Shown here in pieces: positions 4,016 to 23,264 of a stretch of 64,000 nt of DNA. A program made the translations under genes and the position numbers. The stretch is from contig NZ_BONI01000046.1 of the NCBI RefSeq assembly GCF_016862635.1, positions 1-64,000 on the forward strand, given 5' to 3'. This DNA is from Catellatospora coxensis. GTDB lineage: Bacteria; Actinomycetota; Actinomycetes; Mycobacteriales; Micromonosporaceae. Every line of letters begins with the position of its first letter. Positions within the stretch are counted from its first letter, which is position 1. The notes beneath the pieces were generated by a model. That model worked only from the letters and a program-made list of their open reading frames with translations. It did no database searches and was not told where the DNA came from.

Positions 4016-4684
4016 TCAGTATTGCCGTATGAACGGCGCGGCGGTGGTGACCGTCAGATCGATGTCGCCCGACTCGTAGTCGTCGGACTCGTCGCCGTCG
4101 TCGGCGGCCGCGTGCCGGCCGCGTGCCGTTTCGGGCTCCTGCCGGTGCGCGGACAGCATCGCGAGCCCCAGCAGGACCACCGCCGCGAGCGCCGCCCACA
4201 TGCCGCGGCCGGGGCTGGAGCTGAAGCGGGACAGCAGCTCGGTGTTCATGAAGCCGCCGAACACGCGTGGCAGCTCACTGGTCGTGCTCAGCACGCTCGC
4301 CGCGGCCGCCAGCACCACGAGCAGCACCGCCGAGGTGCCGAGCGCGGCCAGCCGCGCGGTCGACCGGGCCGCGGCCGGCCCGAACAGCGCCACCGCGGTC
4401 GCCGCCGCCACCAGCATCAGGCCCGACAGGTACGGCGTGCCGCCGGTGGTCGACCAGACCGAGCTGGTCACCTGCGGGATGCTGGCGAAGTACTCGTCGC
4501 CGGACCGGGTGGTGTCGATGATCTGCCACTCCCCGATCAGCGACGCGATCGCCGCGGCGCCCGCCAGCACGACGAGCCCTGTCGTCAGCCGGGAGTCCGT
4601 CGTCATCGCACGCCAGCCGGGGCGGCGGCGTTCCGCGACGGCCGTCTCCGGCCCGAACTCCACCACATCGAGGTCCTCGGACAT
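4016..4684 (-). CDS. Four-helix integral membrane protein of unknown function
   Basis: 222 residues. A short acidic cytoplasmic N-terminus (about 30 residues) is followed by four hydrophobic segments at about residues 33-52, 86-106, 112-134 and 160-178, then a hydrophilic acidic tail '[16 protein letters not shown]' ending near 'FIRQY'. A loop of about 30 residues between helices 1 and 2 contains '[11 protein letters not shown]' and is probably extracellular. I do not recognise the family. It sits 37 bases upstream of serS on the same strand and could be transcribed with it; a strong terminator at 4710-4742 separates it from the AIM24 gene. Confidence 0.7.
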
Positions 4685-4709
4685 GGGCGCATCATCCCAT
4701 GTACGGCTG

Positions 4710-4742
4710 AAAAAACAGGCCCCTCCACGGGGGAGGGGCCTG
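4710..4742 (-). terminator. intrinsic terminator of the AIM24-family gene
   Basis: 11-bp perfect stem (4716-4726 with 4732-4742), five-base loop, followed on the minus strand by six T residues (4715-4710). It lies 24 bases after the stop codon of the AIM24-type gene and is one of the few hairpin-plus-U-tract terminators in the window. Confidence 0.85.
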
Positions 4743-4765
4743 CCGTCATCGGACCTGCGCCGGGG

Positions 4766-5500
4766 TCACTGGCCGAGCAGGCCGCCCAGCAGCCCGCCCT
4801 GCTGCTGCTGGCCGCCGCTGCCGCCGGCGATGCCCGCCGGGGGCTCCTCGGACGGTTGCACCACGACGAAGCCCTGGCCCTGGAAGCTCATGGTGAAGGC
4901 CTCACCGGTGCTGCGGCCCAGCAGGGTGCCGATGCCCAGCTGCTCGGCGCGGTGGTAGCCGGTCTGCAGGTTGGCCGACCAGCAGATCGCCGCCTGGGGG
5001 TCGGCGTAGGTGGGCTGGTCCACGGTCAGCACGACCGGGGTGCCCTTGGTGGTGATGGCGATCCGGCCCTGGCCCGAGAAGACGCAGTTGAACAGGCCGG
5101 CCGCGGAGAACATGCCCATGCCCTGGACCATCTTGATGTCGTAGTTCAGCGACGACTCGAAGGCCAGCACGTTGGTGCCGTTGACGCTGAGGTGGTCACC
5201 GGGGCCCAGGTCGATCAGGTGCACGTCGGCGGCCCGGTCGGCCAGGAACACGTCACCACGGCCGGAAAGCTTCATCAGCGGGATGCCCTCACCGGTGAGC
5301 TTGCTCTTGAGCCACTTGGCCGCGCCACCGGAACCCAGCGCCTGGAACTGCACCTGGCCCTGGTAGGCAACCATCGCGCCGGTGCGTGCCATGACCTCGC
5401 CGTTGAGCTCGATCTTCAGCATCTTCGAGTTCTGCAGCGTCAGACCGGGAGTCGCGGACTCCTTCTCCAGGTTCTCGGCAGCGAAGAGTGCGCTCTGCAT
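4766..5500 (-). CDS. AIM24 family protein (DUF124/TIM24 fold)
   Basis: Beta-rich protein of the AIM24 family, whose mitochondrial members affect inner-membrane architecture; bacterial roles are not established. About 244 residues. Family features are 'MLKIELNGEVMARTGAMVAY', 'RGDVFLADRAADVHLIDLGP', 'VNGTNVLAFESSLNYDIK' and 'GLFNCVFSGQGRIAITTKGTP'. The C-terminus is a low-complexity Gly/Gln/Leu tail (GGQQQQGGLLGGLLGQ). Start chosen at ATG 5500, which follows GGAGG at normal spacing; the frame stays open further upstream to 5593 but without a ribosome site. It has its own terminator downstream and appears monocistronic. Confidence 0.82.
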   Translation of the reverse strand: MQSALFAAENLEKESATPGLTLQNSKMLKIELNGEVMARTGAMVAYQGQVQFQALGSGGAAKWLKSKLTGEGIPLMKLSGRGDVFLADRAADVHLIDLGPGDHLSVNGTNVLAFESSLNYDIKMVQGMGMFSAAGLFNCVFSGQGRIAITTKGTPVVLTVDQPTYADPQAAICWSANLQTGYHRAEQLGIGTLLGRSTGEAFTMSFQGQGFVVVQPSEEPPAGIAGGSGGQQQQGGLLGGLLGQ

Positions 5501-5631
5501 GTCGTCATCCTCCATACAAACGGGGGCGGAGAAACGCACCGAGCGTAGTTGACCTGCACAAGTATGAAAGTCGGCTTCGTGACTCAGTGGCAAAGGTCAG
5601 GGTGAAGATCGGGGAAACCCGCGGGGGTTTC

Positions 5632-5985
5632 TCAGCCCCAGCCCAGCTCGTGCAGGCGGTCGTCGTCGATGCCGAAGTGGTGGGCGATCTCGTGCACCAC
5701 GGTGACCGCCACCTCCTCGACGACGTCGTCGTCGGTGTCGCAGATGCGCAGGATCGGATGCCGGTAGATGGTGATCCGGTCGGGCAGCACCCCGGCATAG
5801 TCCCAGCCGCGGGCGGTGAGCGCGTGGCCCTCGTACAGGCCGAGCAGCTCGGGCTCGCCCGGCGGCGACTCGTCCTCCACCAGGATGACGACGTTGCGCA
5901 TCAGGTTGAGCAGCTCCTGCGGGACCTCGTCGAGGGCGTCGGCGACCAGCTCCTCGAAGCGTTCCCGGCTCATCTCGACGGCCAT
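5632..5985 (-). CDS. Minimal MMP-like metallopeptidase (zincin) family protein
   Basis: 117-residue protein carrying the zinc-protease motif HEIAHHFGIDDDRLHELGW near its C-terminus: HExxH plus a downstream acidic/His segment characteristic of the small actinobacterial 'metallopeptidase family' proteins. Upstream segments 'MSRERFEELVADALDEVPQE' and 'PELLGLYEGHALT' are also typical. Likely cytoplasmic; no signal peptide. It starts three bases after the pheA stop and is presumably co-transcribed with it. A homologue lies near serS and pheA in M. tuberculosis. Proteolytic activity is inferred from the motif only. Confidence 0.85.
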   Translation of the reverse strand: MAVEMSRERFEELVADALDEVPQELLNLMRNVVILVEDESPPGEPELLGLYEGHALTARGWDYAGVLPDRITIYRHPILRICDTDDDVVEEVAVTVVHEIAHHFGIDDDRLHELGWG

Positions 5986-5988
5986 GGC

Positions 5989-6945
5989 TCAGGACAGCTC
6001 GCCCCGGCGCAGCCGGCCCAGCCAGGCGGCGGCGTCGGTGTAGTCCGGGTCGGACAGTCCCGGCGGCGGCGGCACCGGCCGCTCCGGCGCCGAGCCGGGC
6101 AGACCGGCCCGGGGGTACGAGCCGAGGAAGCGCACCCCGGCGCAGATGCGGCGCAGGCCCTGCAGCGCCTCGCCGACCCGCGCCTCGGCGACGTGGCCGG
6201 TGCAGTCGAGGAAGAAGACGTACCGGCCGAGCCGCTCGCCGGTGGGGCGGGACTCGATCCGGGTCAGGTTCACGCCGCGTACGGCCAGCTCGGTGAGCAC
6301 GGCGAGCAGCGCCCCGACCCGGTCGTGGGAGATCCAGACGGCCAGCGAGGTGAGGTCGTTGCCGGTCGGCTCGGGCGGGGTGCCCGGCCGCGACAGCAGC
6401 ACGAAACGCGTCGCGGCGTCCGGGTGATCGGCGATCTTGTCCGCTAGCTGGAGCAGGCCGAAGCGCTGGATGGCGATCGGGGCGCAGATCGCGGCGTCGA
6501 AGTCGCCCGCGGCGACCCCGGCCGCGGCGGCCCCGTTGGACAGCACGTCGACCACGGTCGCGTCCGGCGCGTACGCCCGCAGCCAGCCCCGGCACTGCGT
6601 GGACGCCTGCGGGTGCGCCGCGATCGAGCGCACGCCGGCCAGCGTGGTGCCGGAGCGGACGGCCAGCACGAACTCCACCGGGATGACCACCTCGCGGGTG
6701 ATCACCAGCGGGTCGCCGTCGACCAGCTCGTCCAGCGTCACGCCGACGGCGCCGCCGATCGAGTTCTCCCACGGGACCAGCGCCGCGTCGGCGTCGCCGG
6801 CCCGCACGGCCTCCAGCGCCTCGGGCACGCTGCGGGCGGGCGTCCGGATGCCTCTCCCGGCGGCCGGAATGGTGAGCAGCGCCTGCTCGGCGAAGGTGCT
6901 CTCCGGACCGAGGTAGACGAAACGGGTGGGCGGAACTCCAGGCAT
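5989..6945 (-). CDS. pheA: Prephenate dehydratase
   Basis: Converts prephenate to phenylpyruvate in phenylalanine biosynthesis. About 318 residues. The PDT domain (about residues 5-185) opens with 'FVYLGPESTFAEQALL' and includes 'LVPWENSIGGAVGVTLDELV' and the catalytic Thr-Arg-Phe in 'DAATRFVLLSRP'. The ACT regulatory domain (about 195-270) has 'HDRVGALLAVLTELAVRGVN' followed by 'LTRIESRP', the phenylalanine-binding signature, so feedback inhibition by Phe is expected. A Pro-rich tail follows. Start chosen at ATG 6945 by comparison with family length; in-frame ATGs at 6963 and 6990 are alternatives. Just upstream of the small metallopeptidase gene. Confidence 0.95.
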   Translation of the reverse strand: MPGVPPTRFVYLGPESTFAEQALLTIPAAGRGIRTPARSVPEALEAVRAGDADAALVPWENSIGGAVGVTLDELVDGDPLVITREVVIPVEFVLAVRSGTTLAGVRSIAAHPQASTQCRGWLRAYAPDATVVDVLSNGAAAAGVAAGDFDAAICAPIAIQRFGLLQLADKIADHPDAATRFVLLSRPGTPPEPTGNDLTSLAVWISHDRVGALLAVLTELAVRGVNLTRIESRPTGERLGRYVFFLDCTGHVAEARVGEALQGLRRICAGVRFLGSYPRAGLPGSAPERPVPPPPGLSDPDYTDAAAWLGRLRRGELS

Positions 6946-7002
6946 ACCGACGAGCCTAGTCATTGGTGGCCGCCTTCGCGGCCACGGCATGCGGCCACGG
7001 CG

Positions 7003-7524
7003 TCAGCAGCCGGCCGTGATGCGGATGCCGGGTGGGGCGAAGTTGCGCACCTCGACGGTGCAGATGTCGGTGCCGGCGGTGACCAGGTCGAGCGAGGTCG
7101 GCACGCCCTTGGTGACGACCTGCAGGGGTTCCCGGCCCGGCACGGTGAGCACGGTGTACTGCCAGGTTCCGGCGCAGACCGGGGGCCTGGTCACGGTGAC
7201 CGTGCCCGAGCCGGGCAGGATCGACGACTTGCGGCGCACCGCGGCGATGATCTGGTCGCCGCCGGGGCGGCCCTGGCAGTCGGTGACGGTCAGCTCGGGG
7301 AAGGGGCCGGGGCTGCTGGGCGGGGCCGACGGCGGCAGGCTGAAGCTGGGCGGCAGCGTCACCGCACTGGGTGACACGGACGGCTGCGGCACGGTGCCGC
7401 CGGGCTTGGGCTGCAGCTCGGGTGGAACTCCGCAGCCACCGAGCAGAGCCGCGCCGGCCAGGCACGCGGTGGCGAGCGGGAGGGCCCGGTTGGACGGACG
7501 GGTTGGACGCAGGGGCATGGGCAA
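7003..7524 (-). CDS. Secreted lipoprotein of unknown function
   Basis: 173 residues. N-terminal signal with basic residues, a hydrophobic core 'LPLATACLAGAALLGGC' and lipobox LGGC, then a Pro/Ser-rich linker of about 40 residues, then a small domain (about residues 75-173) with 'ELTVTDCQGRPGGDQIIAAV', 'PPVCAGTWQYTVLTVPG' and 'DICTVEVRNFAPPGIRITAGC'. The four Cys residues of the domain could form two disulfides. Not a family I recognise. It precedes pheA on the same strand with a gap of about 57 bases. Confidence 0.75.
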   Translation of the reverse strand: MPMPLRPTRPSNRALPLATACLAGAALLGGCGVPPELQPKPGGTVPQPSVSPSAVTLPPSFSLPPSAPPSSPGPFPELTVTDCQGRPGGDQIIAAVRRKSSILPGSGTVTVTRPPVCAGTWQYTVLTVPGREPLQVVTKGVPTSLDLVTAGTDICTVEVRNFAPPGIRITAGC

Positions 7525-7555
7525 CGAGACTAGCGCGCGGTCGCCCTACCCGCGG

Positions 7556-7984
7556 TCATACCGCCGCGAAGAAGCTGAGTGAGCCGACGACCTGACCGCC
7601 CTGCCACAGCGGGGTGGCGACGGCGTCGAGGGTTCGGCTTGGCGTGTCCTGGGGCCCGCGCACGCGCAGCAGGCCGCGTGCGGGCCGCTTGGAGGTGAGC
7701 GCGAGCAGTGGGGGGATCTGCTCGCGCTCTGCTTCACCCAGCTCGTTTCCGGCGGCGGTGAAGTCGATCAGGCACAGGACCTCGCGTACGTCCCGCCCGG
7801 CCAGCTCGGTGTGGTGCTCCACGGAGAGCAGCCGGACCCAGGACGAGGAGGCGGCGACGATCAAGCCTTTGGCGTCGATGACCAAACACGACTCCTCGGC
7901 CGAGGAAACCGGGACCGACCAGCTGTGCAGCGGGTCGACGGCGATCGGCTCCAACGGGGAGAGGGAGAGCTCGATGTGGGTCAT
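7556..7984 (-). CDS. Small PAS-fold-like protein
   Basis: 142 residues, no signal peptide or membrane segment. The segment 'CLVIDAKGLIVAASSSWVRL' followed by 'LAGRDVREVLCLIDF' resembles the start of a PAS domain, where a protein reflects on a cofactor or ligand, and 'LDAVATPLWQGGQVVGSLSF' fits the final beta-strands. There is no attached output domain, so it may act by partner binding. It lies 11 bases downstream of the NERD-like gene and is probably in the same transcript. The PAS assignment rests on pattern only. Confidence 0.6.
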   Translation of the reverse strand: MTHIELSLSPLEPIAVDPLHSWSVPVSSAEESCLVIDAKGLIVAASSSWVRLLSVEHHTELAGRDVREVLCLIDFTAAGNELGEAEREQIPPLLALTSKRPARGLLRVRGPQDTPSRTLDAVATPLWQGGQVVGSLSFFAAV

Positions 7985-7995
7985 CGCTGCTCACG

Positions 7996-8733
7996 TTACC
8001 CGCGTGCAGTGCCCTTGTCACCGGGGGTCGAGCCTTCCGGGTGCCACGTGTAACCGCTGCCCGCGGCGTACGGCTGGTTGACCCAGATCGCGGGGTTGCG
8101 GGCCACCTGGGACAGCTTCTCGGCGGTGGTGCCGGTGATCCGCCGGCCGGTGGAGTCGAGCACCTTGTCGAGCTCGCGATACGACGTGACGATGCATTCC
8201 TTGGGCAGGCCGTTGACGCTGATCGGCCCGCTGCCGACGAACGCGAGCACGGCGAACACCTTGATGTCCTGCCCGATCGCCGCGGAGATGGCCTTGGCGG
8301 CGCGCTTGGCGTCGCGGCGGGCCTGCGAGATGTACGGCGGCCGGCGGCCGCTGATCTGCACCACGTCGCCGGCGATGAGCACCCGGCTGCGGCCGTGCTG
8401 GGCGAGGGAGACGCTGAAGATGCCGCCCGGCCCGATGGCGAGGAAGCCCGCGTTCGAGGGCTGCTGCGGTTTGGCCGTGCCGGCCTGCGCGGTCTGGGTG
8501 GTCAGCAATGCGTGCGGCCACTCGATGACGTGCCAGTCGCGACCGAGGCGGTGCACCGCGCGGTCCTCGGCGGCCGACATGCGCCGGACGGCTCGGTCGG
8601 CGCGGCGGCGGCGGGCCCAGTCCATCGGGGAACCGGGGGGCGGGGCGGTGTCTGGTCCTGACGGCACCGGCAGGCTGGGGGAGCGTCCGAAGGTCGGGCG
8701 CAGGAAGGGCGCACGATCGGGGTAGACGGTCAT
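7996..8733 (-). CDS. NERD (nuclease-related domain)-like protein
   Basis: 245 residues. After a Pro-rich N-terminus (about 40 residues) and an Arg-rich helix, the central part reads 'DWHVIEWPHALL', 'NAGFLAIGPGGIFSVSL' and 'ISQARRDAKRAAKAISAAIG', the usual order of NERD-domain elements (beta-strands plus the helix with Gln/Lys-rich face). The usual catalytic Asp/Glu-x-Lys set is not obvious: the 'GIFSVSLAQHG' position normally reads like 'G-I-ivEvK', so nuclease activity is doubtful. GGAGG lies in front of ATG 8733. Co-directional with the PAS-like gene. Confidence 0.65.
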   Translation of the reverse strand: MTVYPDRAPFLRPTFGRSPSLPVPSGPDTAPPPGSPMDWARRRRADRAVRRMSAAEDRAVHRLGRDWHVIEWPHALLTTQTAQAGTAKPQQPSNAGFLAIGPGGIFSVSLAQHGRSRVLIAGDVVQISGRRPPYISQARRDAKRAAKAISAAIGQDIKVFAVLAFVGSGPISVNGLPKECIVTSYRELDKVLDSTGRRITGTTAEKLSQVARNPAIWVNQPYAAGSGYTWHPEGSTPGDKGTARG

Positions 8734-8956
8734 GGGGTGCCTCCGGGTGGAACGACACGCATTGAGTTAGGTGTCCCTTACCGTACGTGTTCGCTCATCG
8801 ATGTGTCAGGGGGCAAATCGGGCACTCAGCAAGAATGAATGGATGAATGTCCGGTTCAGCTTCATTCCCTGGGGCTCATGCGGCAGGTCTGTCGCCGCGC
8901 GTCGCCGAGATTCTCACGCACCCGGCCGCCGTGCGGTGAGCAACCCGTGAGACAGG

Positions 8957-14228: not shown

Positions 14229-15458
14229 TTACTTCTCGTTGTTGACGACTTCTGGATGGATAAGTACGAAGTTGCCCAGCTTGTCATTCTTCGCAGCGCG
14301 GAACATGTCCTTGGTCGTCTTGTCGAGCGCTTCGCCCTGGTACTTGCCGTTGACGACGATGCTCTCGTAGGTGCCCGAGTTGGTCTTGAGCAGCACGAGA
14401 TCGGCGCTGGCCATGTCCTTCATGGTGAACAGGAAGTCCGTGACGCCCATCCCCTTGGGCAGGCTGAGCAGCATCGACTTGCCCACCGCGGCGATCAGCT
14501 GGTTGACCTTGCCGAAGTCGGTGAGCACGCCGGCCGAGCCGGCCTTCTTCGCCATCGCCTTGATCAGCTGCTGCTGGTGGCGCTGGCGGCCGTAGTCGCC
14601 GGACCCGTCCGGCAGGTAGCGCTGGCGCGCGTAGTCCAGCGCCTCCCAGCCCGCCATCTCCCGGCAGCCCGGCTTGTGCAGGTAGCGCTGGTTGCCCGTA
14701 CGCCGGGCGTAGCTGTCGGCCTCGTGCTCGTCGGCGATGCCGCCGATGTACTTGGGCTTGCCCTTGACCACGAAGTTGTGGATCGACTTGGTCGGCGCCT
14801 CCACGCACATGGGCACGGTGCCCAGCGCGTCGATGAACGTCTTGAAGCCGCCGAAGTCGATGACCGCCGCCGCCTCGAACGCCATGCCACCGGTCAGCTT
14901 GCTGATCGCCTTGGCCGCGGACTTCAGCCCGCCCCGCCAGTCGCCCTTGCCGCCAAGACCGTTCGTGAACGCGCCGTTGATGCGCTGCTGCGAACCCGGG
15001 ATGTTCACGTCCCGCGGCACCGACATCAGGTATGCCTGATCGTGGTTCTTCGACACGTGAAGGATGAGGATGGTGTCGGAGCGGGCGTCGGTCGCCTTCT
15101 GGCTGGCGCGCGTGTCGATGCCCAGCAGCAGGATGTTGAACGCGCCGTCGAAGGCCTTACCCGCCGGGGCGGCCGGGGCGGCCGAGGTCTCCGGGTCCAC
15201 CAGCTCGGTGCTCTCCGACACCTGGATGTTGCCCTCCAGGTTGCCGACGATGGTCTTGATCCCCACCAGCGCGCCACCGGAGACCATCATCAGCAGCGCG
15301 CCGAAGGTGATCGCCAGCTTGGCGGACAGTGGCGCACCACGTCTCTTCTTGCGCTTCGGGGTCTTGGTGGCCGGTGTGTCGTCGCCGCGCCCGCGAGGGG
15401 GGCGCCGTTGCGGCACGAAGCCTCGTTGCTCTTCTTGGTCGATCGTCGATGTTGCCAC
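14229..15458 (-). CDS. LCP family wall-polymer ligase, LCP2
   Basis: About 409 residues with a basic cytoplasmic tail ending 'PKRKKRRGAPLSAKLAI', one membrane segment 'FGALLMMVSGGALVGIK' and the LCP domain: 'LLLGIDTRASQKATDARSDT', 'LMSVPRDVNIPG', 'RINGAFTNG', 'VIDFGGFKTFIDALGTV' and 'DYARQRYLPDGSGDYGRQRH'. Very close to LCP3, including near-identical stretches around 'QRHQQQLIKAMAKKAGS', 'GVLTD' and 'DLVLLKTN', and ending EVVNNEK against EFVNREK. Start chosen at GTG 15458 (context CCTGGGGAGTCAC-GTG), which aligns with the LCP3 start; the frame is open to 15731. Its putative promoter is about 240 bases upstream, giving an unusually long leader. Confidence 0.92.
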   Translation of the reverse strand: MATSTIDQEEQRGFVPQRRPPRGRGDDTPATKTPKRKKRRGAPLSAKLAITFGALLMMVSGGALVGIKTIVGNLEGNIQVSESTELVDPETSAAPAAPAGKAFDGAFNILLLGIDTRASQKATDARSDTILILHVSKNHDQAYLMSVPRDVNIPGSQQRINGAFTNGLGGKGDWRGGLKSAAKAISKLTGGMAFEAAAVIDFGGFKTFIDALGTVPMCVEAPTKSIHNFVVKGKPKYIGGIADEHEADSYARRTGNQRYLHKPGCREMAGWEALDYARQRYLPDGSGDYGRQRHQQQLIKAMAKKAGSAGVLTDFGKVNQLIAAVGKSMLLSLPKGMGVTDFLFTMKDMASADLVLLKTNSGTYESIVVNGKYQGEALDKTTKDMFRAAKNDKLGNFVLIHPEVVNNEK

Positions 15459-15966
15459 GTGACTCCCCAGGTCCGTTGCGTGGGTGTGGTCGCCTTGACG
15501 GGCGCGGTCAGCTGACCCTCTTGGCGAACTCCGGGCTGGCCGCGCGAACTGATCGAGGGTCGTCGGCGGCGGCTGCAACGGCCGTCGTGGCCACCGCTGT
15601 GGGGTCGGCCGCCGGCCGGGCATGGTGTTCCGTGCACTGTTCGCTGTGACACGTCCGCCATGCCTCCCCCAGGGTCTGGATCGCCTTCGACCGAGCCACT
15701 GTAGTTGGTCAGCCTCGGCGACCGCGAGCAATGACGAGATCAGATCTTTTACCGGTATCCGGGGGAATTAGGCAGATTCATCCCCTGCTTGCCATTGCGG
15801 CCCGAGCTCGCCGAGCCTCGTGAATTTGAGCTGACGACGGCTGCTCGTAAGCGACGATCTGAGGCCCCCCACGACGTTCGATCGGGGATTACGATCTCGA
15901 TCGTCCGAACGCGACTTGATCGGGAAGGGCTCGATCGGCGCTGCTCGGGCAGTGAGAGGACGGGGA
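15459..15966. other. 508-base divergent intergenic region between LCP2 and the I36 cassette
   Basis: Holds the long LCP2 leader (15459-15697) with an out-of-frame ATG reading frame starting at 15661, the shared LCP promoter block (15698-15728), and a relatively AT-rich stretch around 15729-15800. The last 40 bases before the first I36 gene are duplicated before the second. No convincing conserved gene was found inside. Confidence 0.5.
15698..15728 (-). promoter_or_regulatory. promoter-like block of LCP2, shared with LCP3
   Basis: On the minus strand the order is CTCGCGGT, 17 bases, TACAGT, then GGCTCGGTC. The same two boxes with exactly the same 17-base spacer and the same downstream GGCTCGGTC occur in front of LCP3 (23303-23333), while the spacer sequence differs. 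TACAGT fits a -10 box; CTCGCGGT is not a standard -35 box. Promoter function is inferred from the conservation. Confidence 0.5.
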
Positions 15967-16446
15967 ATGGCAATCATCGGCAAGCGAGGCAGAGTCCGGT
16001 TGGCCAGTGCGGTGCTCGCTGTCGCGGGGTCGGTCGGACTCGTGGTGACCACGGCCGCGCCGGCCAGCGCAGCTCCGGCGTACATCCATCTGTATGCCGT
16101 CCAGGACGTGGGTTCGAGTGACAACGGCTACTGCGACACCGGGTACTTCTGCGCCTACACCAAGCCTTGGCTCGATCCCTACGGCATCGGCTTCTACAAC
16201 GACAAGTGGGACTGGGCGGCCACCGACGTGCCGAAGATCTGGAGCGGCACCGAGTCGATCAACAACAATGCGGAGTCGTGGTGGAATCACGGCACTCCGT
16301 CTTACAACAATGACGTGCAGGTATACCAATACGCCGGTGGCAGCGGTGTGAGCATGTGCGTGCAGAACGGTGTGCAGATCCAGCTGGCCTCCTCGTACGG
16401 GATGGCGAACCTTCCGTCAGCCCACGTCTGGCGCAGCTCCTGCTGA
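15967..16446 (+). CDS. Secreted peptidase-inhibitor I36-type protein, copy 1
   Basis: 159 residues: signal peptide with basic start, hydrophobic core 'LASAVLAVAGSVGLVVTTA' and a cleavage site near APASA/AP, then a mature domain of about 124 residues. 'GYCDTGYFCAYTKPW', 'GIGFYNDKWDWAATDVPKIW' and 'SINNNAESWWNHGT' follow the crystallin-like pattern of inhibitor family I36, whose type member is the Streptomyces metalloproteinase inhibitor SMPI. Four Cys (two near the N-terminus, 'SMCVQNG', C-terminal Cys) could make two disulfides. Start at ATG 15967 after AGAGGACGGGGA; an upstream TTG (15916) would precede the signal peptide. Inhibitor activity is not shown; a surface or signalling role is equally possible. 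Codon use is visibly more AT-tolerant than in the flanking LCP genes. Confidence 0.8.
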   Translation: MAIIGKRGRVRLASAVLAVAGSVGLVVTTAAPASAAPAYIHLYAVQDVGSSDNGYCDTGYFCAYTKPWLDPYGIGFYNDKWDWAATDVPKIWSGTESINNNAESWWNHGTPSYNNDVQVYQYAGGSGVSMCVQNGVQIQLASSYGMANLPSAHVWRSSC

Positions 16447-16464
16447 CAGGCCCGGAAGCGTTGC

Positions 16465-16532
16465 GGGGGCGTCGTCTTCGGCGGCGTCCCCGATGGACGC
16501 CCGGTGCATCCGGGTCCAGAAACGACGCCCCC
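16465..16532 (+). terminator. branched hairpin after I36 copy 1
   Basis: 11-bp perfect arms (16465-16475 with 16522-16532) enclose smaller inverted repeats, one pairing 16465-16474 with a nearby GGCGTCCCC-type arm. It begins 18 bases past the stop of copy 1 and lies before the ribosome site of copy 2. Could attenuate rather than stop transcription. Confidence 0.45.
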
Positions 16533-16628
16533 CATGAAGATCAGGTGGAGGCTAATATCGCGACTGCTCGAGCGCGGCCGGCCGGGAGCGGCTCGATCGG
16601 CGCGGCTCGGCCAGTGAAGGGACGGGGA

Positions 16629-17105
16629 ATGGTGGACATCCGTAAGAGGGCCGGCGCACGGCTTGCGGGAGTGGCTCTCGCAGTGGCGTCATCGGTCGGT
16701 CTGGTGCTCACGACGGCGGCGCCGGCCAGCGCGGCGCCCGCGTTCATCAAGCTGTGGTCGGCGCAGGACGTCGGAGCGAGTGAGGAAGGGTACTGCGACA
16801 CCGGGTACTTCTGCGCCTACATCAGCACGAATCTGACGAGCCAGGGCATCGGCTTCTACAACGACAAGTGGGACTGGGCGGCCACGGACGTTCCGAATAC
16901 GTTCAGCGGATACGACATCAACAACAACGCCGAGTCGTGGTGGAACCACGGCACGCCGTCCTTCAACAACGACGTCCAGGTCTACCAGTACGCGGGTGGC
17001 AGCGGCGTCAGCATGTGCGTCCAGAACGGGGTGCAGATCAAGTACGGCTCGTCGTACGGCATGGCCAACCTTCCCTCGGCCCACGTATGGCGCAGCTCGT
17101 GCTGA
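16629..17105 (+). CDS. Secreted peptidase-inhibitor I36-type protein, copy 2
   Basis: 158 residues, paralogue of copy 1. Signal peptide 'LAGVALAVASSVGLVLTTAA' with cleavage near APASA/AP. The mature domain has 'GYCDTGYFCAYIST', 'GIGFYNDKWDWAATDVPNTF', 'DINNNAESWWNHGTPSFNND' and the same final 17 residues as copy 1. Differences cluster between the second Cys and 'GIGFYND' and around 'YGSSYGM', which may define specificity. Start at ATG 16629 in the duplicated GACGGGGA context; the longer open frame upstream (to 16356) runs back into copy 1 out of frame. Its end overlaps the start of the following lipoprotein gene, suggesting coupled expression with the exporter genes. Confidence 0.82.
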   Translation: MVDIRKRAGARLAGVALAVASSVGLVLTTAAPASAAPAFIKLWSAQDVGASEEGYCDTGYFCAYISTNLTSQGIGFYNDKWDWAATDVPNTFSGYDINNNAESWWNHGTPSFNNDVQVYQYAGGSGVSMCVQNGVQIKYGSSYGMANLPSAHVWRSSC

Positions 17106-18046
17106 AGTTCGGCACCACGCTCGCGGCCGTCGCCCTGGCGACGGCCGCGTGCGGCACCGCCTCGACCCCCGAACCCCCGCAGGCACAGCCGACGGGATCG
17201 GCGCCGGTCGTCGACGGCGATGCCTTCCGCGAGGTCGGGCGGCTACGGCAGGAGCTCGACGACGCCATCGGCAAGCTCGAGGACAGATGCATGCTGGGCA
17301 AGGGCTTCACCGTGCTGCTGCCCCGGGAGCCCCGTACGGACCCCGGTTTCGTCATGCTCGACATCTACTCGTCGCCGTCGTCGGCCGATGCCGAGCGCGA
17401 CGGCTACGGCATCGCGGGTCGCGTCGAGCAGCGTGGCCACGATGTCGAACCCCAGCCGACGGGTGCGTGGTACGAGCAGTCGCTCGAGGAGCAGCGCCGG
17501 TACGAACGGGAGTTGACGGGATCGGGGGACACCCCGGCGACGCCCGGCGCCAACGGCACCGGGCAGGACGGAGGTTGCCGGGGCGCGGTGCTCACCGCGG
17601 CCTACGGCGCCACGCAGCGCGGCCCTCGCAACCCGACCTACCAGCACCTGCCGACTGAGGAGATGCTGGCCGCGGTGCCAGCGGTACGCAAGGCCCGCGA
17701 AGCCTGGGCGCTGTGCGTGGCCAAGGCGGGATACCCGCGGTTCGATGAGCCGCGTGACGCCGCCGCATACGCGCAGTACTTCTTCGACCCGGTCGGTAGC
17801 CGCCCGGGTGTGCCGGTGCCCAAGGGCGGCCCGTGGCCCCTCGCCGAGGCACGGATGAAGGAGCGCACACTGGCCGTCGCGGACGCCCGCTGCGCGGACG
17901 AACACCAGGTGCGCGAGACCGTGTCGGCGCAGTGGGCGCTGCTGGTCGATCAGGCACGCCGGCGGATCGAACCGCAGCTTGTCGCGTATGCCGCGCAGCT
18001 TCGTGAGTGTCTCGTCCGGGTTCAGCAGGAGTTGGGCGGAAAATAG
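17087..18046 (+). CDS. Lipoprotein of the I36/ABC cassette, 319 residues
   Basis: N-terminus MAQLVLKFGTTLAAVALATAAC with a lipobox at Cys 22, then a Pro-rich linker and a helical domain. Features are 'VGRLRQELDDAIGKLEDRCM', 'AREAWALCVAKAGYPRF', and 'LRECLVRVQQELGGK' at the end. ATG 17087 overlaps the second I36 gene by 19 bases; GTG 17099 is an alternative that keeps the signal. It shares a 'C-V-A-x-G-Y-P' element and overall layout with the next lipoprotein. Unknown family; sits outside the membrane, possibly as an accessory or immunity component of the exporter that follows. Confidence 0.72.
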   Translation: MAQLVLKFGTTLAAVALATAACGTASTPEPPQAQPTGSAPVVDGDAFREVGRLRQELDDAIGKLEDRCMLGKGFTVLLPREPRTDPGFVMLDIYSSPSSADAERDGYGIAGRVEQRGHDVEPQPTGAWYEQSLEEQRRYERELTGSGDTPATPGANGTGQDGGCRGAVLTAAYGATQRGPRNPTYQHLPTEEMLAAVPAVRKAREAWALCVAKAGYPRFDEPRDAAAYAQYFFDPVGSRPGVPVPKGGPWPLAEARMKERTLAVADARCADEHQVRETVSAQWALLVDQARRRIEPQLVAYAAQLRECLVRVQQELGGK

Positions 18047-18949
18047 ATGCGCAAAGTGGTCTGCGCCCTCATCGGCGTGATGCTCGTCGGCGGCTGCACC
18101 TCCCCGGACAGCGGGACCGAGGAAGTCAGACTGACGCAGGTCGACGGTATGCCCACGGCCGATGTGGACGACACCGTCTGGCTCGAGTGGGCCGAGTCGA
18201 CGCTGGCCGGAGAATGCATGGTGGCCCGCGGATACCCGTTCTGGGCGCAGTGGCGCGCACGAGTTCGGAAGAACACCGAGCCCGATCAGCTTTACGGCAT
18301 CGCCGACGTCACGTGGGTCACGGCGCACGGATACGGGATCGGGGAACGCCGATCGGCACCGGACGTGACGCCGGAAGACCCCAACACCCGCTACCTGCAT
18401 TCGTTGCCCAAGGAGCGCTGGCGGGAGTACGACACCGCCTATCACGGCACCGAGCAGGACCGGATCACGGTCACCTTGGCCAACGGCATGACCGCCAGCA
18501 TGGCGTCGAAGGGTTGCCTCGCGGAGGCACGTACGAAGCTGTTCGGATCGCTGCCCGACTGGTTGCGGCTCGACACGTCCTGGCGCAACATCGACGCGGA
18601 AATCGCCCCGACGGTGCTCAAGGACGCCCGGTACCTGAAAGCGCTGGCCGGCTGGCGCGCATGCATGGCCGGCAGGGGACAGCAGGTCGCCGAACCGATG
18701 GCGTTGCGTGAACAGGTATCGCGCGAGTACTCGCTGAAGCCCCGTACGGAGGCCAGGGAGCTGGAGATGGCACTGGCGAAGCTCGAAGCCGAGTGCGCCC
18801 AGACCACGGCACTGATCCGGACTGCCGAGGAGGTACACGCCGAGGTTCGGGCAGGCCTCGACACCACGCGTAAGAGTGACCTCGACACCTACCGCGAGAT
18901 GATGCGCACCGCGCTCGACGCCGCTCGAAAGCTGGCCGGCCCGGCGTAG
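18047..18949 (+). CDS. Lipoprotein of the I36/ABC cassette, 300 residues
   Basis: Signal MRKVVCALIGVMLVGGC with lipobox VGGC (Cys 17). The mature part includes 'VWLEWAESTLAGECMVARGY', 'PNTRYLHSLPKERWREYDTA', 'LKALAGWRACMAGRGQQV' and a long charged helix near the C-terminus ('EARELEMALAKLEAECAQT'). Its start codon follows directly on the stop of the preceding lipoprotein gene. The repeated 'C-M-x-x-G' elements resemble those of the preceding protein, so the two look like distant paralogues. Function unknown; I see no enzyme motif. Confidence 0.72.
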   Translation: MRKVVCALIGVMLVGGCTSPDSGTEEVRLTQVDGMPTADVDDTVWLEWAESTLAGECMVARGYPFWAQWRARVRKNTEPDQLYGIADVTWVTAHGYGIGERRSAPDVTPEDPNTRYLHSLPKERWREYDTAYHGTEQDRITVTLANGMTASMASKGCLAEARTKLFGSLPDWLRLDTSWRNIDAEIAPTVLKDARYLKALAGWRACMAGRGQQVAEPMALREQVSREYSLKPRTEARELEMALAKLEAECAQTTALIRTAEEVHAEVRAGLDTTRKSDLDTYREMMRTALDAARKLAGPA

Positions 18950-18989
18950 TCGTGCGTGGTGTGACAGGCTCCTCGGCTGGAGGGAAGAC

Positions 18990-20144
18990 ATGAATCGACG
19001 TCAACTGCTGGTCGCCGGTGGTTCGGCCGGGCTGTTGGCGGCTACCGGCACGGCGGTGTACGCAGCCAGCCTGGCCCGCACCCCGGGTCAGCGCGCGGCG
19101 CAAGCGGCGGCACCGCCACCGTCTGTGGTGACGGTGCCGGTGCGGCGTGGACAGCTGCTCGACGAGACCGTGCTGGACGGTGTGCTGGAACGCGCCGTCA
19201 CGACAGACATCGCCGCGCCCGCGGCGGTGGAGGGCGCGAGCAAGATCGTCGTCACCAGGCTGAAGGTCGCCATCGGCAGCCAGGTGCGCTCTGGCGATGT
19301 GCTGATGGAGGTGTCGGGCCGACCGTTGATCGTGCTGCCCGGACAGTTCCCGGCCTTCCGCGACCTCCAGCGTGGCGACACGGGCCCCGATGTCAGGCAG
19401 TTGCAGGAGGCCCTGCGTGCCCGCTTCGGCACACCGCGGACCTCGGTCTTCGACAGCCGCACCGAGCGTGATCTGCGGCAGCTGTATCAGCGGGCCGGTT
19501 ACGCGCCGGTGACCCGCGATGTCGCCCTGCCGGAAGGGTCCACGCCCCTTCCGGCACAGTCGCCCACCGCCGGCGCGGCGGGCGCGGCGCGGCGGGTGGT
19601 GCTGCCGGCCGGGGAGATCGCATTCGTGCCTGCGCTTCCGGCACAGGTTGCCGGCCTTGCCGCCAAGGTCGGTGCGGTGGCCGGCGGCACGGTCGCGTCG
19701 CTTGCCTCGGGCCCCTGGCGGGTCGCCGCCCTGCTCGATGCCGCCGGTGAGCGTGCGCTCAGCGAAAACAGGCCTGAGGTGACCTTCGGCGCCGGTCCGA
19801 TGCAGGATCGCAGGACCAGCCTGCTGGAGATCCGGGAGCGGCCCGCCGTTGGTGAACGCCCCGCGTATCGCGAGGGTGTGTTCGCCGTGGAAGGCACGCC
19901 TGTTCTGGAACCGGGCACCGCACAGTCGGTGCGGGTGTCCCGTGCCCACAGCGCCGAGAACAGCCTGATCGTGCCGGTGTCGGCGCTGTGGACCGGCGCT
20001 GACGGCGCAGTCCATGTCACTGTGCTCAAGGACGGCCGGAGCACGCAGGTGCCGGTGACGGTGATGCTCAGTGTCCTGGGCGAGGCTGCGGTCACCGGCG
20101 AACTCGTGGAGAACGACCCGGTGGTCGTCGCCGGGCATGGCTGA
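18990..20144 (+). CDS. Membrane-fusion (HlyD/MacA-like) protein with peptidoglycan-binding domain
   Basis: 384 residues. The start MNRRQLLVAGGSAGLLAATG forms an uncleaved or Tat-like anchor. It is followed by a biotinyl/lipoyl-type hairpin ('VVTVPVRRGQLLDETVLDG', 'LKVAIGSQVRSGDVLMEVSG'), then a peptidoglycan-binding insertion 'GDTGPDVRQLQEALRARFG' and a C-terminal beta-barrel part ('ENSLIVPVSALWTGADGAVH'). This is the adaptor of tripartite MacAB-like exporters as found in Gram-positive actinomycetes, where the peptidoglycan-binding insert ties the complex to the wall. Its stop overlaps the ATPase start by eight bases. Confidence 0.85.
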   Translation: MNRRQLLVAGGSAGLLAATGTAVYAASLARTPGQRAAQAAAPPPSVVTVPVRRGQLLDETVLDGVLERAVTTDIAAPAAVEGASKIVVTRLKVAIGSQVRSGDVLMEVSGRPLIVLPGQFPAFRDLQRGDTGPDVRQLQEALRARFGTPRTSVFDSRTERDLRQLYQRAGYAPVTRDVALPEGSTPLPAQSPTAGAAGAARRVVLPAGEIAFVPALPAQVAGLAAKVGAVAGGTVASLASGPWRVAALLDAAGERALSENRPEVTFGAGPMQDRRTSLLEIRERPAVGERPAYREGVFAVEGTPVLEPGTAQSVRVSRAHSAENSLIVPVSALWTGADGAVHVTVLKDGRSTQVPVTVMLSVLGEAAVTGELVENDPVVVAGHG

Positions 20145-20820
20145 GCCCGTGCTCGAGGCGGTGGGCCTGTCCCGCGTCTTCGCCGGCCCGCCCGAGGTGC
20201 ACGCACTGCGTGACGCGAGCCTGTCCGTCAAGGGCGGAGAGATGGTCGCGGTGGTGGGTGCGTCGGGCTCCGGTAAGTCGACCCTGCTCAACATCCTCGG
20301 TCTGCTCGACAAGCCGACCTCGGGGGTGCTCCGGCTGGGTGGGCGCGATGTCACCACCTTGACCGAACGTGAACGCACCCGTGCTCGGGCCCGCGCTATC
20401 GGCTTCGTCTTCCAGGCCTTCCACCTGGTTCCTCACCTGGACTGCGTGCGCAATGTCATGCTGCCGCTGGTACACCAGGGTGTCCCCCGTGACGTCCGCG
20501 GACACCGCGCCGAGGCGGCCCTGGGCCGGGTCGGCCTGGCACACCGGCTCACCGCCCGGCCGGGCACGCTGTCTGGTGGTGAGCAGCAGCGTGTCGCGGT
20601 CGCTCGGGCGATAGTGCATGATCCGACGCTACTGCTCTGCGACGAGCCCACGGGCAACCTCGACAGCGAGAACACCGCGACGGTCCTGGAACTGCTACGG
20701 GAACTGGCCACGCCGGGCCGTGCGGTCGTGGTGATCACGCACGATCAGCAGGTCCGTGATGCTGCCGACCGCTGGGTGGAGGTGCGCGATGGCCGCTGCG
20801 GCTCGCACCAGTCCGCGTGA
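20137..20820 (+). CDS. ABC transporter ATP-binding protein (MacB/LolD type)
   Basis: 227 residues; energises the FtsX-type permease encoded next. Walker A '[20 protein letters not shown]', Q-loop '[14 protein letters not shown]', signature '[19 protein letters not shown]', Walker B '[16 protein letters not shown]' and H-loop '[10 protein letters not shown]'. The segment '[12 protein letters not shown]' and the 'PTGNLDS' motif place it in the MacB/LolD/FtsE group (mechanotransmission, not classical import). Start at ATG 20137, overlapping the membrane-fusion gene. Confidence 0.93.
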
Positions 20821-21985
20821 CGTCTTCACGCAGGCATGGCACGCAGCAGTCGGCAGGCGAGGCCGGTCGTTGCTGACGGCGGCCGGTGTCGGCCTCGGAG
20901 TCGCGGCGACCGTCGCCACGCTGGCAGTCACGGCCACCGCGTCCGGTGCGATCTCTGACAAGTTCGACGCGACCCGTGCCACGAGCCTGACGCTGCGCTG
21001 GCCGGAGCGGGTGAGCAGGCCCGAACCGGGTGTGATCATGAACGTGACCAGGCTCAACGGGGTCGAGGCAGCTGGGCTGATCTGTGAGGCGGCACGCGAT
21101 GAGCACCGTGCCACGGCCGTCACGCCGCAGCATGCCACCGGTGTGCCGACGAGGATCGGCCTGCTCGCGGCGCAGCCGAGCGCGTTCAGCGCGCTGCGGG
21201 TCGCGCCGGTCTCGGGCCGATTCTTCGACGACGGACACGGCACCCGCGCTGAGCAGGTCGTGGTCGTGGATACGGTGGCCGCTCAAGCCCTGGGAGTGTC
21301 GCAGCCCGGACAGCTCATCTACGTGGACGGAGCGCCGGTCAGCGTGATCGGCGTCTACGAGGCCCCGGTGGGTGAGGCCCGGATGACCGCAGCGGTGATC
21401 ATGCCCTACCAGCGCTGCCTTCATGACAGCCGCGAGCAGCCGCTGTTCGGACAGCCGATGGTGGTGGTGCGAACCGCTCTCGGCGCAGCCGACCAGGTCG
21501 CAGGTGAAGCCCGGCTGGCGCTGTATCCAGCCGATCCCGGTGCGCTGGAGGCGCTTGTGCCGCCGGACCTGCGTACCTTCCGTGAGGGTGTCGAGGAGGA
21601 TACGCGTGCGCTGTTCCTGGGTCTGGCGCTCGTGTCGTTGATCATCGGGGCGCTGGGCGTCTCGAACGCGACGCTGGTATCGGTCTTGGAACGCAGGCCA
21701 GAGATCGGGTTGCGGAGGGCGATCGGCGCCTCGAGAGCCGCCGTCGCCGGCCAGTTCCTCGTCGAATCAGGCTTGCTCGGTCTGGCCGGCGGAATCCTCG
21801 GTACGGTCGTGGCAGTCGATGCCGCTGTCGCGGTGGCGCTCGTGAAGCAATGGTTGGTCGTGCTGGATCCGGCCCTTCTCGGCGGCGGGCCGTTGCTGGG
21901 CCTCCTGGTCGGCACCGCGGCCGGAGCCTACCCGGCGTGGAAGGCGAGCCGGGTCGAACCGGCGGCATCGCTGCGAGCGTCCTGA
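20789..21985 (+). CDS. FtsX/MacB-like ABC permease
   Basis: 398 residues. One N-terminal membrane helix ('LLTAAGVGLGVAATVATLAV'), a large extracellular MacB-periplasmic-core domain (about residues 55-265), then three C-terminal helices with the FtsX signature 'ALGVSNATLVSVLERRPEIG' and 'LRRAIGASRAAVAGQFLVES'. The start ATG 20789 follows GGAGG and overlaps the ATPase gene by 32 bases. With the preceding two genes it completes a MacAB-like system. Such systems move or sense peptides or lipids at the outer membrane face; the I36 proteins are plausible partners, but that is inferred from linkage only. Confidence 0.9.
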   Translation: MAAAARTSPRDVFTQAWHAAVGRRGRSLLTAAGVGLGVAATVATLAVTATASGAISDKFDATRATSLTLRWPERVSRPEPGVIMNVTRLNGVEAAGLICEAARDEHRATAVTPQHATGVPTRIGLLAAQPSAFSALRVAPVSGRFFDDGHGTRAEQVVVVDTVAAQALGVSQPGQLIYVDGAPVSVIGVYEAPVGEARMTAAVIMPYQRCLHDSREQPLFGQPMVVVRTALGAADQVAGEARLALYPADPGALEALVPPDLRTFREGVEEDTRALFLGLALVSLIIGALGVSNATLVSVLERRPEIGLRRAIGASRAAVAGQFLVESGLLGLAGGILGTVVAVDAAVAVALVKQWLVVLDPALLGGGPLLGLLVGTAAGAYPAWKASRVEPAASLRAS

Positions 21986-22007
21986 CCGGGCAAGCGGGCC
22001 GACGCCG

Positions 22008-23264
22008 TCACTTCTCCCTGTTCACGAACTCCGGGTTGAGCAGCGCGAATTGTCCGAGCTGGTCATTCTTGGCCGCCCGGAACATCTGCATCGTGTTGGA
22101 GCTGAGCGCCTCGCCGCCGCTGCCGGAGCTGTTGTACCAGCCCGCGTTAGTCTTCAGCAGCACGAGGTCGGCGCCGGCCAGATCCTTCAGGGAGAACATG
22201 AAGTCGATCAGCGGGACGCCGTGCGTGTCCAGGATCATGGACTCGCCGACGGCCTTCATCAGGGCGTTGACCTTGCCGAGGTCGGTCAGCACACCGCTGG
22301 ACCCGGCCTTCTTCGCCATCGCCTTGATCAGCTGCTGCTGGTGGCGCTGGCGGCCGTAGTCGCCGTCGTCGAGGGACTTGCGGATACGGGAGTAGTCCAG
22401 GGCCTCCCAGCCCGGCTTCTCCCGGCAGCCCTTCTTGTGCAGGTACTCCTTGCCGAGCAGGCCGAGCCTGCGCTCCACCGCCAGGTTGTCGTTGCCCGAG
22501 CCGGAGACGTACTTCGGCTTGCCGTCGATCATGAAGTAGTGGCTGGACTTCGTGTCCTCCTCGACGCAGACGTTCACCGTGCCCAGGGCGTCGATGATCT
22601 TCTTGAAGCCGCCGAAGTCGATGACGGCGGCACCGTCGAAGGTGATGCCGGTCAGCTTGGTGACCGTCTTGGCGGTCAGGCCCAAGCCGCCGGCCCAGCC
22701 GCCGCCGTTCTGGGCGCCGAAGTAGAAGGCCGCATTGATCTTGTTGGTGCCGCCGCTGTACCTGGTCTTGGGGTTGGCCGGGATGGAGACCTGGGTGTCA
22801 CGCGGGATCGACATCAGGTATGCCTGGTCGTGCGTGGCCGGGATGTGCAGCAGCAGGACCGTGTCCGCGCGGGCGTTGTCCTTCTCCTGGGTCGCGCGCA
22901 CGTCGATGCCGAGCAGCAGCATGTCGATCGCGCCCTTGAGGTCGCTGCCCTTCGGGCCGGTGTCGGTCTTGCCGGCGTCGCCCAGCACGTCGACGACGGC
23001 GACGTTGTCCGTGAGCTGGCCTTCGAACGACTTGACACCGACAATCGCGCCGCCGGCGACCAACATCAGCAGGGCGCCGAAGGTCAGCGTCAGCTTCGCC
23101 CAGAGGGGGGCGGCGCGCTTGGACTTCTTCTTGCCCTTGCCCTTGTTGAGCGAGTGGCCGGTCTTCCTGCCGGAGGGCTCGTCGTCGTACGCGTCGGCGG
23201 GCCGGCGGCTCCGCTGGCTGGGCACGGTGTTCTTGGCACCGCCTCGCCGCTGCTTGTTCGCCAC
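22008..23264 (-). CDS. LCP family wall-polymer ligase, LCP3
   Basis: 418 residues. Basic cytoplasmic tail ('LNKGKGKKKSKRAAPLWAKL'), single membrane segment 'FGALLMLVAGGAIVGVK', then the LCP domain: 'LLLGIDVRATQEKDNARADT', 'LMSIPRDTQVSIP', 'KINAAFYFG', 'VIDFGGFKKIIDALGTV' and 'DYSRIRKSLDDGDYGRQRHQ'. Closest relative in the window is LCP2. Start GTG 23264 after CCCGGGGGAACGC. Its stop lies 22 bases from the end of the convergent permease gene; no clear terminator separates them. Confidence 0.93.
   Translation of the reverse strand: MANKQRRGGAKNTVPSQRSRRPADAYDDEPSGRKTGHSLNKGKGKKKSKRAAPLWAKLTLTFGALLMLVAGGAIVGVKSFEGQLTDNVAVVDVLGDAGKTDTGPKGSDLKGAIDMLLLGIDVRATQEKDNARADTVLLLHIPATHDQAYLMSIPRDTQVSIPANPKTRYSGGTNKINAAFYFGAQNGGGWAGGLGLTAKTVTKLTGITFDGAAVIDFGGFKKIIDALGTVNVCVEEDTKSSHYFMIDGKPKYVSGSGNDNLAVERRLGLLGKEYLHKKGCREKPGWEALDYSRIRKSLDDGDYGRQRHQQQLIKAMAKKAGSSGVLTDLGKVNALMKAVGESMILDTHGVPLIDFMFSLKDLAGADLVLLKTNAGWYNSSGSGGEALSSNTMQMFRAAKNDQLGQFALLNPEFVNREK

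Follow-up and report, generated by a model that had tools for sequence, protein, structure and literature searches.

The window analysed here is a stretch of 64,000 nucleotides (nt) from Catellatospora coxensis (contig NZ_BONI01000046.1, positions 1 to 64,000), in which seven close-packed plus-strand genes, all with open reading frames, extend from 15967 to 21985 (Table 1). They encode two tandem small secreted proteins of the Inhibitor_I36 type (I36a and I36b), two lipoproteins (LP; LP1 and LP2), a membrane-fusion protein (MFP), an ATP-binding cassette (ABC) ATPase and a permease. The initial annotation had read them as a possible undescribed cell-envelope system. The close packing and the spacing that it gave are exact, i.e., a 19-nt overlap between I36b and LP1, abutting LP1 and LP2, a 40-nt gap between LP2 and MFP, and overlaps of 8 nt (MFP/ATPase) and 32 nt (ATPase/permease). 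The seven genes are as described, and only the start of the block has to be moved, 15928 being upstream of the ATG of I36a at 15967. The comparisons presented below show recurrent linkage of these genes in other genomes, and the block looks like two recurrent modules (LP-I36 and LP-exporter) combined in an acquired cassette.

Table 1. Features of the seven-gene block and of its surroundings (window coordinates; aa, amino acids; LCP, LytR-CpsA-Psr).
Feature	Coordinates	Strand	Remarks
I36a	15967..16446	+	ATG start; small secreted protein, 159 aa, Sec-type signal, PF03995
I36b	16629..17105	+	tandem duplicate of I36a; 158 aa; four Cys (56, 62, 130, 158)
LP1	17087..18046	+	four-Cys lipoprotein; family without Pfam or NCBIfam model
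LP2	18047..18949	+	paralogue of LP1; mostly helical by prediction
MFP	18990..20144	+	adaptor; N-terminal membrane segment; weak PG_binding_1 match
ABC ATPase	20137..20820	+	LolD/MacB/FtsE type
Permease	20789..21985	+	MacB_PCD plus FtsX
RNA hairpin between I36a and I36b	16464..16491	+	strong, possible attenuator; fold of 16447-16560
Inserted segment (approximate)	15746..22007		between the remnant and the intact LCP gene
LCP remnant pieces	15507..15745	-	3'-end-like to 15565; 5'-end and upstream-like 15609-15745; reference gene 22008-23264
Flanking LCP gene	14229..15416	-	LytR-CpsA-Psr type
Flanking LCP gene	22008..23264	-	neighbours the 14229..15416 LCP gene in 10 other genomes of the genus

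LP1 and LP2 both have a lipobox-like Cys (judged by eye). The name «related lipoproteins» holds for them since they align through four shared Cys. Nearly all rows of a 21-member family alignment keep four Cys, and the four Cys columns are invariant in the paired LPs (73/73). Upon 109 LPs, 82 have a lipobox and 23 have only a membrane segment. No family was found for LP1 and LP2 by a scan of Pfam and NCBIfam, a spurious match (E 0.25) aside, and the Pfam scan of the 21 family members gave a single, unrelated match (E 0.0044).

The two I36 proteins of the window score 24.6 and 29.6 bits with PF03995 (Inhibitor_I36), i.e., above the Pfam cut-off of 21.1, and the two genes form a tandem duplication that takes in about 46 nt of leader; both the family and the tandem arrangement had been recognized in the initial annotation, as had the Sec signals. 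A Sec-like signal is present in 77 of 81 I36 relatives and four Cys in 48 of them. An I36 protein of C. bangladeshensis NBRC 107357 is 54% identical to the window I36. The hairpin between I36a and I36b is GC-rich (−54.2 kcal/mol, z −2.2), and no T-run terminator was found at it. Because tandem I36 genes are separated by such a strong hairpin, a single transcript across the seven genes is not assured.

PF03995 matches 22 of 30 LP-linked small proteins at E 0.1. At E ≤ 0.01, 44 other LP partners are matched by PF03995 in 29 cases and by PF00030 (Beta/Gamma crystallin) in 3. The profile of these 44 partners (A8) matches chains of gamma-crystallin, spherulin 3A and protein S (for crystallin, 1elp at E 6.6e-11); no crystallin chain was matched by the profile built from the window I36 only (A7).

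The ABC ATPase and FtsX/MacB permease of the initial annotation are found as described (ABC_tran 114.9 bits, MacB_PCD 75 bits and FtsX 60.8 bits in Pfam), and the nearest solved structures for the permease are those of MacB (5nik, 5lil, 5gko). The two genes are separate and reach 86.9 and 228.8 bits with NF007826, the equivalog of fused ATPase-permease MacB, for which 966 bits are needed. The ATPase scores 195.6 bits with TIGR03608 (lactococcin 972 type), below the cut-off of 254.85. The MFP is a weak relative of the resistance-nodulation-division adaptors (TIGR01730, 31.1 bits; cut-off 94.9). It had been called a peptidoglycan-binding fusion protein; the fusion protein stands, while the peptidoglycan-binding match is below the Pfam cut-off (PG_binding_1, 16.1 vs. 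23 bits).

The recurrence of these genes was analysed on 100 fetched loci (20 places from the LP2 search, 20 best or selected MFP places, two of them from the genome of the window itself, and 60 places from the LP profile), an I36 neighbour being a gene on the same strand within 1.5 kb. LP2 has relatives in 26 of 101 related genomes, and at E 1e-6 the LP profile has matches in at least 93 of the 394 genomes from the class. The 100 loci contain 104 LP clusters: an I36-like gene is present in 73, an MFP in 31, both in 12 and neither in 12; among the 73 LP-I36 clusters, 61 have no MFP. Conversely, 74 of 81 I36 matches lie at 300 nt or less from a same-strand LP gene (7.4% expected by area; median distance 31 nt). 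The remaining seven are six tandem copies and an extra copy in L140, so that 80 of 81 adjoin either an LP gene or an I36 tandem run beside one. I36 is first in 11 of the 12 loci with both I36 and MFP; the pairs devoid of MFP are I36-first in 30 cases and LP-first in 31.

It should be kept in mind that the loci are not independent by descent and that the loci which served to build the LP and I36 profiles are also those in which their matches were counted, i.e., these counts are partly circular; the LP linkage of the best A5 matches (training sequences) was left out of the evidence for the same reason. Three checks are outside this circularity: the PF03995 counts, the RefSeq names on two Streptomyces plasmids and the plasmid cassettes L308 and L309. 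With the Pfam I36 model, 61 places were found in 41 related genomes, and 17 of them are within 1.5 kb of a same-strand LP gene vs. about 0.06 expected (uniform placement, rough genome sizes); the I36-LP linkage is thus not due to chance. A RefSeq «peptidase inhibitor family I36 protein» adjoins an LP gene on plasmids of S. europaeiscabiei and S. aurantiacus. Within the genus, I36 lies beside 10 of 13 LP clusters. The LP clusters without I36 are concentrated in two genomes (8 of 9 in G014, 14 of 15 in G024), in which the LP family has expanded to 14 and 19 places, respectively, with few I36 partners; four LP genes stand in tandem in L253 (5867-10487, G014).

Tree distances of LP and I36 are correlated (Spearman 0.69; 73 pairs within 400 nt). 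Shuffling the pairs within families gives 0.07 (standard deviation 0.04) and none of 500 shuffles reaches 0.69; between-family pairs alone give 0.65, and none of 300 shuffles is as high. The LP-I36 pair moves and diverges as a unit; contact between the two proteins is not proven by co-diversification alone. The partner can also be exchanged. In L177 (5179-13189), two ricin-lectin-like small secreted proteins are each encoded directly before an LP gene. In L271 (G006:C10, same genus, 4216-8896), a secreted protein of 133 aa, unmatched in Pfam, stands in place of I36 before the set LP-MFP-ATPase-permease, and in L087 a small secreted protein of 103 aa is paired with LP. Between the two lectin-LP pairs of L177 lies a gene for a 1367-aa protein with weak matches to lytic transglycosylase and golvesin C-terminal domains. 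Relatives of it are found beside an MFP-ABC operon on a Streptomyces plasmid (L310, 310-4632) and beside LP-I36 (L191, 7901-10849); L308 and L309 end in cut genes of about the same size.

On the exporter side, 90 genomes out of 394 in the class contain an MFP match (E 1e-5). An LP gene adjoins 34 of 40 exporter loci, i.e., 19 of the 20 best (all except L084) and 15 of the 20 weaker ones (by profile, before the MFP gene); the other five weaker loci have at that place a short Cys-containing or lipoprotein-like open reading frame, by eye. I36 adjoins 11 of the best 20 exporter loci and none of the 20 weaker ones. The I36-LP genes of L086 and L088 are oriented divergently from MFP. An OmpR-type response regulator occurs at 4 kb or less in 22 of 37 MFP loci without I36 vs. 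2 of 14 with I36 (one MFP per locus, 51 loci; Fisher p 0.005) and in none of 59 LP-I36 loci without MFP; in the two cases with both I36 and regulator (L184, L186), the LP-I36 pair lies close to an LP-MFP unit distinct from it. Pump and LP thus form a broad actinobacterial unit, which stands beside either a sensor or a secreted protein.

Full cassettes are recurrent. The order LP, I36, LP, MFP, ATPase, permease is found in another genus of the family (L034), and a second, diverged set I36-LP-MFP-ATPase-permease is present in the window's own genome (L082, G000:C53). The same set exists in other families (e.g., L085, L092, L095). Two plasmids of Streptomyces (L308, L309) carry it as well, close to mobilisation or transposase genes. 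On these plasmids the profiles give 58.9 and 46.7 bits for I36 and 155.3 and 182.4 bits for LP; with Pfam only the I36 of L308 is visible, at 18.8 bits, below the cut-off. The idea that the genes belong together is therefore borne out by the recurrence of their order; for the tie of I36 to the exporter the support is incomplete. Given the I36 counts at best and weaker exporters and the many LP-I36 clusters without MFP, two modules seem a better description than one obligate system, and the initial reading as a cell-envelope system is supported in part. Homologous exporters lacking I36 or LP neighbours had been named as evidence against the proposal: this absence is not the case for LP, and it is frequent for I36.

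In this genome the block is an insertion, since the flanking LCP genes are 83-171 nt apart in 10 congeners and the G+C content at third codon positions of the block is low (0.81-0.88 in the seven genes vs. 0.940 in the 53 other genes of the window; standard deviation 0.037, minimum 0.768). By protein search, all 11 genomes of the genus have a relative of the LCP protein encoded at 22008-23264, and the 10 besides that of the window have the second LCP gene in the same orientation. In the window, 6,612 nt lie between the two LCP matches; the cassette is found there on the opposite strand, and the inserted segment contains solely the seven genes. In the congeners for which the junction is readable (L296, L297), the sequence after the LCP stop aligns upstream of 15416 to 15493-15507. 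The segment 15609-15745 also has a 70% match at 23.2-23.4 kb of the window itself. The cassette would thus be flanked by two copies of an LCP gene, of which one seems to have decayed, and this fits the footprint of a single crossover or of a duplication. In L086 (G310:C13), from another family, three I36 genes, LP, MFP, ATPase and permease are likewise inside an array of LCP genes; LCP arrays may be an entry site for such cassettes.

The reading we favour, tentatively and at somewhat less than an even chance, is that of a horizontally acquired cassette made of a secreted envelope-acting agent, its cognate lipoproteins and a self-protection pump like YknXYZ or LanFEG. I36 proteins would leave the cell by Sec and, being putatively of the beta-gamma-crystallin type, would bind or disturb an outer envelope target of other cells. 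LP1 and LP2, on the outer face of the producer's membrane, would keep the cognate I36 from this target, as LanI does for lantibiotics. By analogy with YknXYZ and LanFEG, the MFP, the ATPase and the MacB-like permease would use cytoplasmic ATP to detach the captured protein from the membrane or to drive it outwards through the wall. What feeds the pump could be either a secreted protein of the same cell or a sensor, in the manner of resistance pumps. In favour of self-protection are counted: (i) the LP clusters with an I36-like neighbour (73/104), the LP-linked I36 matches (80/81) and the Pfam count (17/61 vs. 0.06); (ii) the PF03995 and PF00030 matches of the partners, the first position of I36 and a co-diversification beyond family membership; (iii) the partner exchange in L177 and L271, the regulator split, the insertion and the carriage on plasmids.

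Several points weigh against it. I36 and MFP occur together in only 12 of 104 LP clusters, and I36 is absent from all weaker exporter loci. In the 41 genomes, no LP lies within 1.5 kb of 44 of the 61 Pfam-I36 places, and 33 of 54 LP clusters are without I36 (21 with). The structure model of I36b is poor (pLDDT 35.9), and the predicted model of LP2 matches no fold clearly. Toxic or inhibitory activity is not among the known properties of these proteins here, and transfer as a block can also lead to co-diversification.

A wider formulation is possible but rather doubtful: an undescribed mobile class of actinobacterial secreted-protein systems, in which an exchangeable secreted domain (crystallin-type I36, ricin-lectin-like, others) would be combined with a cognate four-Cys LP and, optionally, an LP-fed MFP-ABC pump. 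In loci devoid of the secreted protein, a two-component system would often stand instead and the same pump would provide inducible resistance. Literature searches, several of them narrow, gave no description of such an I36-lipoprotein-MacAB system, in agreement with the initial annotation. Through their recurrent bond, I36, the LP family and MacB-like pumps each acquire a concrete role open to testing; it should be noted that the naming of I36 genes as protease inhibitors usually rests on homology. If self-protection is true, (i) actinomycetes use crystallin-fold proteins against each other; (ii) agent-immunity pairs are predictable in many genomes from gene order alone; (iii) the LP gene beside MFP-ABC operons, in 34 of the 40 exporter loci analysed, is explained.

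Envelope homeostasis or sensing without toxin is a rather unlikely alternative. The LP-exporter would monitor or clear foreign envelope-damaging compounds and I36 would be a protective wall or membrane binder working with LP. The frequency of LP-MFP-ABC loci without I36, often next to an OmpR-type regulator, agrees with this, as do the place of the window cassette among LCP wall-polymer genes and the TIGR and MacB relatives, which include efflux and envelope systems. However, the LCP setting results from an insertion absent in 10 of 10 congeners, and the LP-I36 clusters without MFP, the divergence of I36 and LP in step and the partner exchange are left unexplained. It is unlikely, too, that LP serves for surface display or maturation, i.e., as a dedicated anchor, chaperone or disulfide partner of I36 (e.g., a protease inhibitor or a coat), the pump releasing I36 from the membrane. 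Conserved Cys on both sides and the occurrence of LP-I36 in either order are what this would lead one to expect; partnerless LPs, alone or in tandem arrays such as that of L253, suit immunity or resistance better. Export of the I36 proteins by the MacAB-like complex, suggested by the operon-like linkage in the window and in L034, is very improbable in view of their Sec-like signals and of the LP-I36 clusters devoid of MFP; the initial annotation had already disfavoured it. A fortuitous adjacency of a generic LP-exporter operon and an I36 gene is the least probable of all: I36-less exporters with LP are common, but the recurrence is far above chance, including in the two plasmid cassettes outside the profile-building set.

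Self-protection can finally be compared with known systems. The cassette permease is similar to MacAB in its MacB_PCD and FtsX domains and in its nearest structures; the cassette differs from MacAB in an ATPase not fused to the permease, in having no TolC context and in its linkage to secreted I36 and lipoproteins instead. The I36 peptidase inhibitor family, to which the Streptomyces metalloproteinase inhibitor belongs, includes the window proteins according to PF03995. Unlike this family, the partners have a profile resembling crystallin chains and the window genes are in an operon with LP and a pump; inhibition by them is putative.

Lactococcin 972 is exported by Sec. Lactococcin 972 type operons are reported to encode a beta-rich bacteriocin and an ABC-type pair presumed to act in immunity and transport (PMC11796350), which resemble the cassette. 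There, the agent is of another family, the operon described has three genes without MFP or lipoprotein, and the cassette ATPase is below the corresponding cut-off. This analogue is itself unproven, since the same source gives the roles of the two further genes as unverified (PMC11796350).

YknWXYZ of Bacillus is reported to be an efflux pump of the SDP toxin that protects against a self-made secreted toxin (PMC4887032). It associates an MFP, a separate ATPase and a MacB-like permease in a Gram-positive, in the same gene order as in the window cassette. It contains the Yip1-family YknW, which has no equivalent among the seven genes, and not four-Cys lipoproteins; it acts on a 42-residue peptide and has no I36 gene, unlike the cassette. 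LanI and LanFEG are a lipoprotein and an ABC pump that shield the producer from its own envelope-acting lantibiotic (PMC4828448). The likeness lies in the combination of lipoprotein and pump; the agent of LanI and LanFEG is a small modified peptide, whereas the seven genes include no lanthipeptide gene, and LanI is unrelated to LP1 and LP2 as far as the Pfam scan shows. If the self-protection reading is true, the cassette would be a variant of such known lipoprotein/ABC arrangements; what is new is the four-Cys lipoprotein family and its exchangeable secreted partner.

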